Positions 12,055-20,847 of a stretch of DNA of 47,476 nucleotides are shown piece by piece (positions within the stretch are counted from its first letter, which is position 1; every line of letters starts with the position of its first letter). Both the position numbers and the translations under genes were made by a program. The DNA lies in NCBI GenBank assembly GCA_017463105.1, contig JAFTPU010000011.1, forward strand, positions 1-47,476, given 5' to 3'. The notes under the pieces are model-generated. The model was not told the origin of the DNA. It did no database searches and was given only the letters and a program-made list of their open reading frames with translations. Source of the stretch: Clostridia bacterium. Lineage in GTDB: Bacteria; Bacillota; Clostridia; Christensenellales; Borkfalkiaceae.

Positions 12055-12090
12055 AAAAAAGCAATCTCCCGTGCCCAAAACACAGGAGAT
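12055..12090 (-). terminator. Terminator of the candidate RNA gene
   Basis: Read on the minus strand, ATCTCCTGTG pairs with CACGGGAGAT around a 7-base loop (12064-12090), followed shortly by a six-T run (12055-12060). Confidence 0.8.
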
Positions 12091-12455
12091 ACCTAATCTT
12101 CGTATTCAGTTTTCAGAGTGTTCGCTTTGCGCTATTCGTCCGTTTCTTTCTGAACTTAATTTCAACGCGCGGTTTCCCACGCCCTCTCTTTTACGGACTC
12201 TCGCTTATTTTACACACTCTCCGTTTTCGTAGTTCATCGGTCTACTCCTTCGCCGTATCTTCTTTGTTAAAGTAATAGGTTTTTGTGCTGTAAGGAATCA
12301 TCGCTTTTCATACCCTCCTTTAACTTGGATTTTTTCGTCGCATCCCTGCGACCCTTTGCCGATCCTTATCGACTATGCCTTATTTGTGCATCGGTTTTCC
12401 CTCTTTGTTTTTTGTGAGATAGGAACATTTTTTGTTGCTCTCTTTCTCTTTTGTA
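12055..12455 (-). ncRNA. Candidate structured RNA gene, about 400 nt, family unknown
   Basis: The stretch 11914-12549 has no substantial ORF but contains a complete minus-strand transcription unit: a promoter at 12461-12488 and an intrinsic terminator at 12055-12090. Between them several helices can be drawn. The clearest is a nested domain: AGAGTGT/ACACTCT (12214-12220 with 12115-12121) encloses GTCCGT/ACGGAC (12193-12198 with 12138-12143), which encloses a 6-bp hairpin with a GAAA tetraloop (12167-12182). The 5' half has GTCGCA/TGCGAC (12337-12352) and CGAT/ATCG (12360-12371) hairpins. Purine-rich, A-rich joining segments are typical of structured RNAs. It lacks tmRNA, RNase P, SRP and 6S hallmarks that I know. 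Two very short ORFs lie inside; see findings. Confidence 0.6.
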
Positions 12456-12460
12456 CTTAT

Positions 12461-12488
12461 ATTATAGCACAGATTTTTCATTTGTCAA
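12461..12488 (-). promoter_or_regulatory. Promoter of the candidate RNA gene
   Basis: On the minus strand there is perfect TTGACA (12483-12488), 16 bases and perfect TATAAT (12461-12466). The predicted start is at about 12454. Confidence 0.8.
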
Positions 12489-12549
12489 GGGGTTTTTCGA
12501 AAATTTTTTAAATTTTTTTAAATTTTTTTTGTTTTATTCCGATAAAAAT

Positions 12550-17247: not shown

Positions 17248-20200
17248 ATGAAAACGAATACCAATTCCCGCAAGAAAAAGCTTCTTGCACTGTTCTTATC
17301 GTTGTTGATGGGCACGTCCACGATGGCGGCTTTCGCTTCCTGTACGGACGACAGCTCCTCCTCGATCGACAGCTCCGATTCCTCTACGGAAGAAGAAACG
17401 GACGAAGAAGACCTCGTCATCACCAACGGCGATTTCGAAACGTTCGACGATAAAGACGGACTCAATCCCATCGTGACCTCCGTTACCGGCTGGACGCGCT
17501 CCGTAAACTCCGCGACGAGCGGCACGGCGCTTTCCTCCAAAGCCGCAAGCGGTATTATCGACACGGCGGACAAGGCTTGGAAAGACCTCACGGAAACCGA
17601 GCTTAAGGATACGAACCCCTCCGCGCTCACCGAAGAACAGGCGGAGAGTCTTTGGGATACCATGTCCACAAGGGACAAGCTCGAATATTACGCGGCGTGG
17701 AAAAAGGCGAACAGCGACGGTAAGATCGCAGAGGACCTTTCCTTCTACGAATCGTTTAATATCGACGACGAGGACCTTCCTCTCAACGTAAGCGAAGCGG
17801 GTGAAAAGACTCCTATCGCCAACCCCCGCACGCACGACTACGAAGCGGGCAAGGAGATCGTCGAGGACGAATACGGCAAAACGCATACGAAAGTGCTGAT
17901 GCTCCACAACGAGTATAGCAATTCTTCCTATTCCGATCTCGGCACCGCGCAGAAATTCAGCTCCTCCACGACCGTTACGGTCAACGCGGGCACGAGCGCG
18001 AAATTCTCCGTTTGGGTGAAAACGAGCGATCTTACTTGCACCACGACGGCGGGCGAGGTGGAAAACGATATCGTCGATAAGGGCGCGTATATCAGCATTT
18101 CGCACTCGGTCGGCGGCACCTCCCTCGATCCTCTTACCATTAAGAATATCGACACCGAAAAGCTGAACGCGACGGGCGAAAACAACGGCTGGGTACAGTA
18201 CGAATTTATGCTCAAGGGCTCGTCTTATGCGGACACCACGTTCAGCATCGTTCTGGGCTTGGGGCTCGGCGGCGGCACGGACAGATACGAATACGTGAAC
18301 GGCTACGCGTTCTTCGACGACGCTACCTGCACGATCATTCAGAACTCCGAATACAGCGAAGCGGGCGCGGAAACGGTCGTCGACTTCGACACGAAAAAAG
18401 ACGCGAAGGTGTTGAAAGCGAACGAGGTCGGCAAGAAATTCGCATTCGATTTCTCGGGCGACTTCGACGCGGCAAGCTCCTTCCTCGACGACGTGGACGA
18501 GAACAATAAATGGACGGTCGCGCCCACCACGCAGAACGGCTATTCCTCCGCGAAAGGCGCGGACAAGGTATGGCCCGCTTTGAAAGGCGGCTTCGACACG
18601 TCGGCTGACGTGGCGGCGATTGTAGACGGCGGCGTGAAAGCCGCGCTCGACGGTTCGGATAAAGCGTATGCGCAAGAATTCTACGACGAATATTACAAGA
18701 GCGAAAACAAAGTAAACGGCGTCGACCTTACGACGCAGAAATCGGTCGTACTCTACTCGGCTTGGGGCGCGGCGTACACGGCGAAATCGCCCGTGATCAC
18801 GATCCCTGCGGCGGAAAACGAGGACGAAGGCACGTATCTGGCGTACTCCTTCTACGTAAAGACCTCGGAAATGAACGGCTTTACGGGCGCGGGCGTAACG
18901 GTGATCGACAGCGCGAGCAAGACCTCGATCTCCTCTATCGATACGACGACGGCTACCCCCGTCACGATCGTGATCGACGGTAAAGAAACGGATATCCACG
19001 ACGGCTGGCAACAATGCTTCCTCTTCCTGTCCAACGAAACGGACGAGGACGTAAAAGTGCAGATCTCGCTCACGTTCGGTACGACGACGATCGAGGACAC
19101 GGACAGATCGGCGTACAGCAAGGGTTCGGCGGTATTCACGGGCTTTGCGCAAAAGAGCATGACGGAAGAAGAGTTCGGCTATGCGACGAGCGGTACCTAT
19201 TCGAAGGTGATCGACCTCGTCGGTGCGGACACGAGCGCGGCGGGCGACAGCGGTTTCGATTCGGCTACCAACCTCTCCTCCAAGAATATCGAGGACGGCT
19301 ACGCGAATCCTCAAAATTATAAGGGCGTTTACAGCGACAGCACCTACGTGACGGACGCGGGCGCAAACTTCGTTTCCAACACCTACGCAAACGCAGGTCT
19401 TTTGAACAGAGAACACGCGGAAAATTACGCGGATATCTTTACGAAGCTGGGCGCGACGGGCGACACGGCGGACGAGAAATGGGTAAGCGTATTCGGCGAC
19501 AACGCTACGAATATCGTAGCAACGCAGCCCCTCGTGATCTACAACGACGGCAGCGAAGCGCACGACAAAGCGTACGGCTTCATCGGTTCGGAAACGACGA
19601 TCTCGGCGAACACCTACAAGGCAGTGTCCGTGCGCGTGAAAACCAACGCGACCGCATACGTGTATCTCGTGGATATGAGCGGCGATTCGAACACCGACCT
19701 CCTTTCAATGGGCAGAACGCGCACCTATTGGTACGACGAGAAGGGCAACGTGCTCACCTCCTACACGAACGCAAACGGTGAAGTGCTTACCCCCGACGAC
19801 GAGGATTTCGTAACGAGACTCGGTACGGCGCTCAAATTGCAAGCGAACGGTCTGTATAAGATCAACGAAGCTTGGGCGGGTGCGGCAAGCTTAACGCAAG
19901 AGCAGAAGAATGCGCAATATGCAAACCTTGCGGCGTACGAAGAAAAGGATTTTGCGGGCGTAACGCATCTTATGATCGCGGACGGCGGCGTTTCGTACGA
20001 CTACAACGACAATTGGAAGCACGACGGTAACGATCAGATCGCTTTCTATAATTATAATAAGGAAACGAAATCGGCGTTTGCATACAGCAATAACACCACT
20101 CCCGTTTACGACTTCTCGACGATAAGCACCCTTTCGGCTCGCTTTGCGGAGATCGAGGGCGAAAACGAGAAGGATATGTTCTTCGAAGTAACGGACACGC

Positions 20201-20847
20201 ACGGCGAATGGGCGACCGTGACCTTCTATATCCACACGGGTGAAAACGCGAAAAATTACCGTCTCGAGGTTTGGAGCGGCGCAAGAAACGCTACGACCGC
20301 AAACGCGGCGAACACCTATGCGTTCTTCGACGCAAGCGGCGTTTCCGATCCCGCGGACGCGGACGCGTACAATAAACTTCTCAACTTCGACGAAAGAAAA
20401 GAAAAACTCGAAGAAGGCAAGGATTATTTCGAAGGCATCTTCTCCTTCTACGACAGCGCGAAGTATCTGCGTTACGACGCCGACCTCGACGAAAACGGCG
20501 TTGGCAACAAGTACGACGAATCGTACGTTGCCCCCACCGAAACGAGCGTAGCTTACCTCAAGGACGGCTATAAGATCTTCGCGGATTACGCAACGATCGA
20601 AACGACGGTCGACGCGGAACCCGAAGAGGACGATACGACAACGGACACCGAAGAGGAAGAAGACGGCGAGCCTACCAACGTATGGCTTTTGGCAAGCTCG
20701 ATCGCGATCGCGGCGGTGCTGGTGCTGGCAGTGATAAGCCTGATCGTTCGGAAAGCGGTGGCGAAAGCCCGCAAAAACCGCGGTGCGAAAGCGGTCGTAA
20801 AATCGGCGAAGCCCAAAAAAGAAAAGAAGGCTAAAAAGGATGAATAA
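17248..20847 (+). CDS. Large multi-module surface protein with lipobox and C-terminal membrane anchor
   Basis: A 1199-residue protein. The N-terminal signal ends in a lipobox-like FASC (Cys32), followed by a Ser/Asp/Glu-rich spacer. The body has about four beta-sandwich-like modules. The first opens VITNGDFETFDD, as in galactose-binding-like carbohydrate modules. Similar lines recur in each: FSVWVKTSDL, YSFYVKTSEMNGF, VSVRVKTNATAYVYL and VTFYIHTGENAKNYRLEV. Near the end an acidic Thr/Glu spacer leads to a single membrane helix (about 1146-1167) and a Lys/Ala-rich basic tail. There is no LPXTG. It is probably a surface glycan- or matrix-binding protein; that role is inference. The ATG follows AAGGTGG. 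A strong terminator follows, so it is monocistronic. Confidence 0.8.
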   Translation: MKTNTNSRKKKLLALFLSLLMGTSTMAAFASCTDDSSSSIDSSDSSTEEETDEEDLVITNGDFETFDDKDGLNPIVTSVTGWTRSVNSATSGTALSSKAASGIIDTADKAWKDLTETELKDTNPSALTEEQAESLWDTMSTRDKLEYYAAWKKANSDGKIAEDLSFYESFNIDDEDLPLNVSEAGEKTPIANPRTHDYEAGKEIVEDEYGKTHTKVLMLHNEYSNSSYSDLGTAQKFSSSTTVTVNAGTSAKFSVWVKTSDLTCTTTAGEVENDIVDKGAYISISHSVGGTSLDPLTIKNIDTEKLNATGENNGWVQYEFMLKGSSYADTTFSIVLGLGLGGGTDRYEYVNGYAFFDDATCTIIQNSEYSEAGAETVVDFDTKKDAKVLKANEVGKKFAFDFSGDFDAASSFLDDVDENNKWTVAPTTQNGYSSAKGADKVWPALKGGFDTSADVAAIVDGGVKAALDGSDKAYAQEFYDEYYKSENKVNGVDLTTQKSVVLYSAWGAAYTAKSPVITIPAAENEDEGTYLAYSFYVKTSEMNGFTGAGVTVIDSASKTSISSIDTTTATPVTIVIDGKETDIHDGWQQCFLFLSNETDEDVKVQISLTFGTTTIEDTDRSAYSKGSAVFTGFAQKSMTEEEFGYATSGTYSKVIDLVGADTSAAGDSGFDSATNLSSKNIEDGYANPQNYKGVYSDSTYVTDAGANFVSNTYANAGLLNREHAENYADIFTKLGATGDTADEKWVSVFGDNATNIVATQPLVIYNDGSEAHDKAYGFIGSETTISANTYKAVSVRVKTNATAYVYLVDMSGDSNTDLLSMGRTRTYWYDEKGNVLTSYTNANGEVLTPDDEDFVTRLGTALKLQANGLYKINEAWAGAASLTQEQKNAQYANLAAYEEKDFAGVTHLMIADGGVSYDYNDNWKHDGNDQIAFYNYNKETKSAFAYSNNTTPVYDFSTISTLSARFAEIEGENEKDMFFEVTDTHGEWATVTFYIHTGENAKNYRLEVWSGARNATTANAANTYAFFDASGVSDPADADAYNKLLNFDERKEKLEEGKDYFEGIFSFYDSAKYLRYDADLDENGVGNKYDESYVAPTETSVAYLKDGYKIFADYATIETTVDAEPEEDDTTTDTEEEEDGEPTNVWLLASSIAIAAVLVLAVISLIVRKAVAKARKNRGAKAVVKSAKPKKEKKAKKDE

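Follow-up and report, generated by a model that had tools for sequence, protein, structure and literature searches.

A conserved RNA with tiny reading frames in a family of Clostridia, possibly gated by ribosomes

What kind of gene fills some 400 nt between a consensus promoter and an intrinsic terminator when it appears to encode next to nothing? This question is raised by a unit on the minus strand (12488-12055) of the window, which is the whole 47,476-nt stretch of Clostridia DNA that was analysed. An earlier note on this DNA had proposed a structured RNA, perhaps of an undescribed class. Here, we find that the RNA is real, unlisted in Rfam and spread across several genera of one family. 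The proposal holds insofar as the RNA is conserved, covaries and has no Rfam match, but it is not simply non-coding: tiny reading frames led by SD sequences are its most conserved organising feature. This is very probably a conserved RNA gene with tiny ORFs that are selected to be translated. The best reading is tentatively that of a stand-alone RNA whose fold would be gated by ribosomes on minimal ORFs, to which we give a probability of roughly 0.42.

From promoter to terminator, the unit contains the following features.

12494..12533, minus strand: A/T-tract region upstream of the -35, UP-element-like, by A/T-tract count in the genus RNAs
12461..12488, minus strand: promoter TTGACA-16-TATAAT with an extended -10 TG (-35 at 12488-12483, -10 at 12466-12461)
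12416..12448, minus strand: 5' hairpin around AACAAAAAAUGUU, conserved, some double-sided changes (5'-domain helices 2 and 3), with a similar segment in other genera
12380..12391, minus strand: ORF1, ATG CAC AAA TAA (MHK, stop), with its SD GAGG at 12403-12400
12358..12373, minus strand: hairpin GUCGAUAAGGAUCGGC, double-sided changes in 4/4 counted pairs (5'-domain helix 4)
12337..12352, minus strand: hairpin with a conserved AGGGAY loop, double-sided changes in 5/5 pairs, 96.8% of cells paired (5'-domain helix 5)
12309..12321, minus strand: SD of ORF2, AAAGGAGGGU, a conserved block and a strong SD
12242..12301, minus strand: ORF2, MIPYSTKTYYFNKEDTAKE and a stop that falls within the last ORF's SD region
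12205..12237, minus strand: last ORF, MNYENGECVK and stop, with the SD GAAGGAG
12214..12220, minus strand: helix Ha, 5' strand, within codons 6-8 of the last ORF, covarying with 12115-12121
12193..12198, minus strand: helix Hb, 5' strand, double-sided changes in 7/7 counted pairs (3'-domain helix 3)
12167..12182, minus strand: hairpin Hc, 6 bp with a GAAA loop (3'-domain helix 4), its register in the window shifted against the counted columns
12150..12165, minus strand: hairpin Hd (3'-domain helix 5)
12138..12143, minus strand: helix Hb, 3' strand, partner of 12198-12193
12115..12121, minus strand: helix Ha, 3' strand, partner of 12220-12214, with covariation
12103..12113, minus strand: conserved 3' motif AAAACUGAAUA, with no or almost no variation in its columns across 50 sequences
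12055..12090, minus strand: intrinsic terminator, stem 12090-12064, then a T-run

The promoter and the terminator that the earlier note described are both there, the former matching the consensus at 12 of 12 positions. For comparison we assembled a genus set of 50 RNAs, the window and 49 relatives, from which three loci with weak or promoter-only BLAST matches (L080, L081, L082) were omitted. Promoters were aligned from 30 genus loci, one of them truncated at a contig end; the rows from other genera for the promoter and 5' segment were chosen by promoter pattern and thus provide no independent test of the promoter. An AAAAA, TTTTT or AAATTT tract occurs in the 40 nt upstream of the -35 in all 48 genus RNAs with enough flank, and the mean AT content of these 40 nt is 87%, versus 52% for the loci. 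This promoter by itself suggests that the RNA may be abundant, and both transcription and translation of the RNA are predicted from sequence.

A script finds a terminator-like hairpin after the RNA in 47/50 genus RNAs, and in these 47 the length from start to terminator is 376-868 nt (median 625). The window carries a short form, consisting of the 5' hairpin, ORF1, two hairpins, ORF2, the last ORF, the 3' domain and the terminator, and long forms have extra SD-led tiny ORFs inserted between ORF2 and the last ORF. By eye, SD-start blocks and GGAGANACNCC blocks repeat within the RNA, which gives it a modular look. In L173, L175, L179, L184 and L188 no frame of at least 200 codons starts within 1.37-2.17 kb past the promoter, so the RNA may be longer there. 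A further terminator-like hairpin, CCCGCA...TGCGGG with a T-run, is visible at 12582-12542 (minus strand), in the interval that separates the RNA promoter from the MreB-like gene.

Comparison with known families gives the unit no home. The Rfam 15 covariance models at gathering have no match in the window, nor anything relevant at E up to 10. The earlier note had called for a search against all Rfam models; in 20 relatives, too, no family matches the unit, and the sole match is a separate tRNA in L282 (377-449, minus strand), which has the same orientation as the RNA and lies about 0.84 kb downstream from the RNA promoter. The note had also recognised no tmRNA, RNase P, SRP or 6S core, and the window agrees with it, having no Rfam match to any of these. 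ARAGORN finds no tmRNA in the window, and a tmRNA over the cut-off lies elsewhere in 46/57 genus genomes (that of G000 on contig C11). 6S RNA (RF00013) is matched in 49/57 genus genomes, over the cut-off in 41, never on the contig of this RNA, and has no match in G000, an incomplete genome. The raiA motif or ModT (RF03072) is found neither in the window nor in any of the 57 genus genomes. It was matched in 0/14 control genomes and in 89/296 genomes of the order, which shows that the search works, and none of the matches listed falls in the window's family. That this RNA has replaced raiA in the family is only a hint, because raiA is missing from other families too.

Within the window's genus most genomes have the RNA. 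BLASTN with the unit matched 56 of 101 genomes, 53 of them from the genus and 3 others over 24-37 nt only, with no match in the genus genomes G002, G006, G042 and G053. A model of the 5' domain places the RNA in 51/57 genus genomes (without a match in G002, G006, G014, G042, G044 and G053), including 12/12 of those with a completeness of 90% or more and a contamination of 5% or less. Among 395 genomes of the order, the same model matched 33 at E <=0.1, of which 19 belong to the window's family, which we take to be Borkfalkiaceae of the Christensenellales, with Coproplasma as a member. Thirteen family loci outside the genus were judged genuine by eye. The strongest match outside the family (L090, R2 E 8.3e-5) proved false on reading, and the other order-wide matches outside the family have E from 0.012 to 0.08.

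Two further searches give a similar picture of the spread. A DNA pattern scan of named genomes yielded 95 stretches that reduce to 80 loci, 24 of which were read by eye; amid many chance matches, it holds copies from Clostridia MAGs and from five loci of Candidatus Coproplasma (L127, L157, L175, L179, L184). A model built from the sequence of the promoter and the 5' hairpin matches strongly, and over nearly its full length, in four family genera (g1, g43, g45, g47), and its weaker matches in other genera often cover the promoter part alone. Across 391 genomes of the class, its best match outside the family (E 6.5e-7) spans model positions 1-41, the promoter part, and a few of the weaker ones span promoter and 5' hairpin. 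The order- and class-wide model searches, with their best matches read, hold no convincing copy outside the window's family. A phage or plasmid origin was considered and rejected, as blastn of phage and plasmid collections gave no match at E 0.01; 11 viral contigs that match the DNA pattern have no credible model match.

The RNA folds better than expected from its composition. Its folding energy is -100.3 kcal/mol, versus -77.3 +/- 4.95 for 100 dinucleotide shuffles, none of which is as good (z -4.65). The three helices named by the earlier note (Ha, Hb and Hc) lie on the minus strand exactly where they had been placed, and the covariation in homologues that it asked for is present in the genus alignments for Ha, Hb and the 5' helices. 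A pseudoknot between TTCAGA and TCTGAA, which it had raised as well, did not survive: the complementarity exists (12154-12149 with 12117-12112), but both halves occur in only 1/50 genus RNAs, the window itself.

Helix Ha, which closes the 3' domain, has a particular position, being located inside the last ORF, whose AUG lies at a constant distance from it. In the 50 genus RNAs, Ha strands pair with their own partners at a score of 17.39 versus 11.51 when partners are swapped, a value reached by 0/20000 permutations. In 19 further rows the scores are 15.55 versus 11.26 (again 0/20000); these rows come from 22 loci beyond the main set, of which three were unparsed (L086, L094, L095), motifs related to AAAACUGAAUA served as their anchors in other genera, and two rows are flawed, L111 being wrongly anchored on ORF1 and L281 belonging to the window's genus. 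As the last ORF overlaps Ha, part of its conservation reflects RNA structure rather than coding.

For the 3' domain as a whole, RNAalifold gave no structure on alignment A2, and the structure was therefore taken from single-sequence folds and counted on a plain MAFFT alignment of 50 sequences, with its columns placed using L047, L041 and the window. Paired cells amount to 70.7% versus 61.2% in shuffles (0/500 reach it), double-change cells to 157 versus 76.6 (0/500), pairs with a double change to 23 versus 19.1 (7/500) and pair types to 65 versus 58.6 (10/500), with the qualification that these shuffles leave relatedness in and that relatedness alone can exceed such shuffles. Slid along the alignment, the same structure has at most 44.3% paired cells and 92 double-change cells. 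The 5' domain, counted on alignment A1 with 44 of the 50 sequences (without L071, L073, L074, L076, L077 and L079), has 58 double-change cells versus 16.4 shuffled; its structure was predicted from this same alignment and is thus favoured over slid controls. In one other genus (L273, L282, L283) the 3' domain was not identified.

The earlier statement that the unit has no substantial ORF is correct in that the longest closed sense frame in the window has 24 codons, but it misses the conserved tiny ORFs. A CCRATG start of ORF1 is present in 49/50 genus RNAs (the exception is L078), near the 5' end, and 49/49 of these reach a stop within 2 or 3 codons. Stops are equally near for 17.8% of ATGs in mononucleotide-shuffled RNAs and for 38/337 of the other ATGs in the same RNAs. 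This constancy does not extend to the sequence: ORF1 takes 30 distinct forms in the genus, ending in TAA (30), TAG (14) or TGA (5), and its second codon can specify H, N, Y, K, Q, D, G or A. The last ORF is short, too, with its stop after 9-14 codons in 50/50 genus RNAs. SD-led ATGs number 4.84 per genus RNA versus 1.28 in dinucleotide shuffles, SD-led ORFs of 2-3 codons 0.98 versus 0.12, and those of 4-20 codons 3.44 versus 0.63. As read from the sequence, the SD of ORF2, AAAGGAGGGU, is complementary to AUUCCUU, with which the coding region of this same ORF opens. Furthermore, an SD-led ORF ends between -18 and +11 nt from the last AUG in 45/50 genus RNAs, which is the geometry of translational coupling.

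Outside the 50 the pattern persists, although the peptides differ strongly between genera by eye. From 64 loci, 12 of them unparsed, removal of duplicates and genus members left 38, and 36 were counted since L091 and L116 were misparsed. In 32 of these 36 correctly parsed RNAs, a script finds that an ATG ORF encoding M and 1-4 further residues precedes the longer ORFs. By eye, L114 adds an ORF1 beyond the 32, and ORF1 is also seen in the unparsed L094, L095, L100, L111, L146 and L268. Among the 36, it is absent in L092, L233 (the same as L116) and L271; L270, L274 and L276 show no clear ORF1 by eye, with a middle or last ORF kept. In L131, a GTG frame lies ahead of ORF1. Some loci multiply these parts: L282 (genus g47) has three tandem units M-I-A, M-F-A and M-T-A, each with a stop and then a near-identical hairpin-like string, L131 has tandem mini-ORF modules MTFK-stop and MTYT-stop, and L182 carries a doubled pair of middle and last ORF.

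The peptide varies, whereas four things are conserved: the strong SD, the start codon, the short set distance from there to the stop, and the overlap between frames and helices. The simplest account would be that selection maintains translation rather than its product. Starting from the observed promoter, terminator, covarying helices, tiny ORFs and ORF/helix overlap, a mechanism can be sketched. The strong SD sites would recruit initiating ribosomes. At ORF1, which ends after 2-3 codons, a ribosome would be held near the 5' end, covering the 5' part and leaving at once. ORF2 would start at an SD able to pair with its own coding sequence and end at or next to the last ORF's SD, so that the latter could be translated by coupling. 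The ribosome on the last ORF would then traverse the 5' strand of Ha and stop just past it, opening the closing helix of the 3' domain. With plentiful ribosomes the RNA would be open and ribosome-coated, and with scarce initiation the 3' domain would close; either the closed or the open form could be the active or stable one. The coupling and gating we infer, and the direction and output of the gating are guesses. Precedents exist for ribosome occupancy of short ORFs that stabilises or switches an RNA, namely axe-txe, LEE1, LEE4, ycbK and the trp/erm leaders (passages of PMC8708949).

The main rival to gating is a polycistronic micropeptide mRNA, in which the folds would only regulate translation and the products would be the aromatic-basic peptides of 10-19 aa plus the last peptide of 8-14 aa. 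We consider this rather unlikely, yet the peptide residues themselves may be selected. Many middle ORFs of the genus keep R-Y-F-x-K with wobble changes, and the K codon at position 5, on which the rows were not selected, is AAA in 28, AAG in 8 and anything else in 0 of 36 rows, which favours a micropeptide. By eye, related-looking strings (LYFRK, LYFAR, FQxxxIK) occur in other genera. Those 36 of 45 rows were themselves picked by an RYF-like motif, so that the conservation of Y and F in them arises by construction, and in places the YF codons look able to pair with the SD. A micropeptide account also sits poorly with an ORF1 that adds just 1-2 residues to Met with no fixed sequence, and with the divergence of the peptides between genera.

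A second alternative is a ribosome or anti-SD sink, in which several strong SD-AUG-stop sites on a stable, highly expressed RNA would hold or recycle 30S or 70S ribosomes, or would deplete peptidyl-tRNA hydrolase by drop-off from minigenes. The number of SD-led AUGs per RNA, the strong-looking promoter with its A/T tracts and the tandem M-x-A-stop units of L282 would suit it, and minigene expression can cause peptidyl-tRNA to accumulate (PMC8012679, in the part seen). The varied second codons mean that no single tRNA would be targeted, and a conserved 3' domain would be needless for a sink, making this improbable in our view. Slightly less probable still, the tiny ORFs could shield a structured non-coding RNA from Rho or RNases, with the function residing in the fold. 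The near-5' location of ORF1 fits such shielding, and so do precedents described in the passages of PMC8708949 that we saw: the two-codon mini-ORF of axe-txe may make the mRNA more stable, and in LEE4 the mRNA is protected when the SD of a six-codon ORF is occupied. Shielding does not account for the exact course of the last ORF through Ha.

In a further reading, nothing is translated and the RNA is purely structural, its SD-AUG-stop strings being a recurring tertiary motif or a product of chance in purine-rich sequence. By eye, the motif GGAGANACNCCRAYGNAC recurs, with one copy in which ACG replaces AUG. Against this very improbable reading, the stop of ORF1 is kept in all 49 RNAs despite its changing position and identity, and shuffled sequences hold far fewer SD-led ORFs.

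Returning to translation-gated folding, how does this RNA compare with described systems? Leader minigenes are among the closest known systems: in the parts of PMC8708949 consulted, the two- to six-codon ORFs of axe-txe mg2, EHEC LEE1 and LEE4 and B. subtilis ycbK act on the RNA or the next gene. They precede an ordinary gene, whereas this RNA has none, carries several tiny ORFs in a row and has a fold conserved across genera. The odc1 motif (uORF-25-1) likewise combines a covarying structure with a short frame, of 11 aa, and a sequestered RBS (PMC8632094, in part). It controls a main ORF, and its peptide is conserved and fixed in length; the RNA described here has no main ORF, and its ORFs vary. 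In all cases of short-ORF leaders and odc1 in the portions of these two papers that we saw, a main gene is present. With trp and erm leader peptides, the RNA changes its structure when a short ORF is translated (PMC8708949, same passages), as this RNA would under gating. This RNA differs in ending in a terminator without a regulated gene, in having at least three ORFs and in having an ORF1 too short for a sensing peptide.

Among stand-alone RNAs, raiA/ModT is a structured RNA of Clostridia (PMC11706538, seen in part), and ROOL, GOLLD and OLE are ornate RNAs, large and structured, whose function is unknown or known in part (passages of PMC12286853). The unit has no Rfam match to any of them; the term 'open reading frame' occurs 0 times in the main text on ModT, and the passages of PMC12286853 describe no array of tiny ORFs. 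The dual-function sRNA VcdRP is also a regulatory RNA with a small ORF (PMC8672173, in part), but it encodes one 29-aa protein, in contrast to ORFs that are minimal, multiple and variable. Among the open-licence PMC papers listed, no title or abstract opening describes this RNA, no paper was found on RNAs of Christensenellales, Borkfalkiaceae or Coproplasma, and the RNA-discovery papers PMC6429828 and PMC8632094, in the portions seen, name no Christensenellales-type hosts. The RNA is apparently of a kind not described before.

Taken further, and at somewhat less than even odds, it may represent a novel class of stand-alone RNAs that conserve arrays of minimal ORFs (start, 1-3 codons, stop) as docking parts for ribosomes instead of as genes, and in which ribosomes that open and close the fold would let the RNA directly sense the capacity for translation initiation. 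If the tiny ORFs are translated, this would be a conserved bacterial RNA that counts two- and three-codon frames among its parts. Such frames are invisible to standard annotation and, if translated, would blur the line between mRNA and non-coding RNA. Translation would also make it a natural system in which to study what a ribosome that produces hardly any peptide offers to selection. Similar RNAs might then be recognised by a genomic signature, a stop that is kept while its position, its identity and the codons before it change.

Finally, the neighbours differ between loci, so that the unit looks like an autonomous gene. In the window, genes for Ppx/GppA, Maf and an MreB/Mbl protein lie upstream on the same strand and a CapD-like gene lies downstream. 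That the RNA is a transcription attenuator leader of this CapD-like gene is scarcely credible and, for any fixed neighbour, largely refuted by the counts: a CapD-like gene follows on the same strand, within the flanking stretch examined, in only 2/50 genus RNAs (the window and L036), a terminator follows the RNA in 47/50, and no regulated main gene was found in the same transcript. The MreB-like gene precedes the RNA on its strand in 32 of the 50 and lies on the opposite side and strand in 4, while the flanks of the other 14, some of them cut by contig ends, show none. Of the two loci tested in other genera, L091 adjoins a divergent Na/H exchanger and L095 a GerAC-type protein.

Some minor observations concern the surroundings. 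In L031, L037, L040, L042, L043 and L056, a short ORF starting with AGGGGGAAAATGATGAGC (MMS..., often T-x-L-x-I-Y-like) lies downstream of the RNA promoter, at most about 0.9 kb away; we presume that it resembles holin-like type I toxin units, and in L040 it is broken by an early stop. A second promoter with 12/12 consensus and a TG before the -10 is located at 11913-11885 (minus strand), just upstream of the CapD-like gene. A 1199-codon frame at 17248-20847 (plus strand) has, by eye, a lipoprotein-like start and a C-terminal membrane segment.
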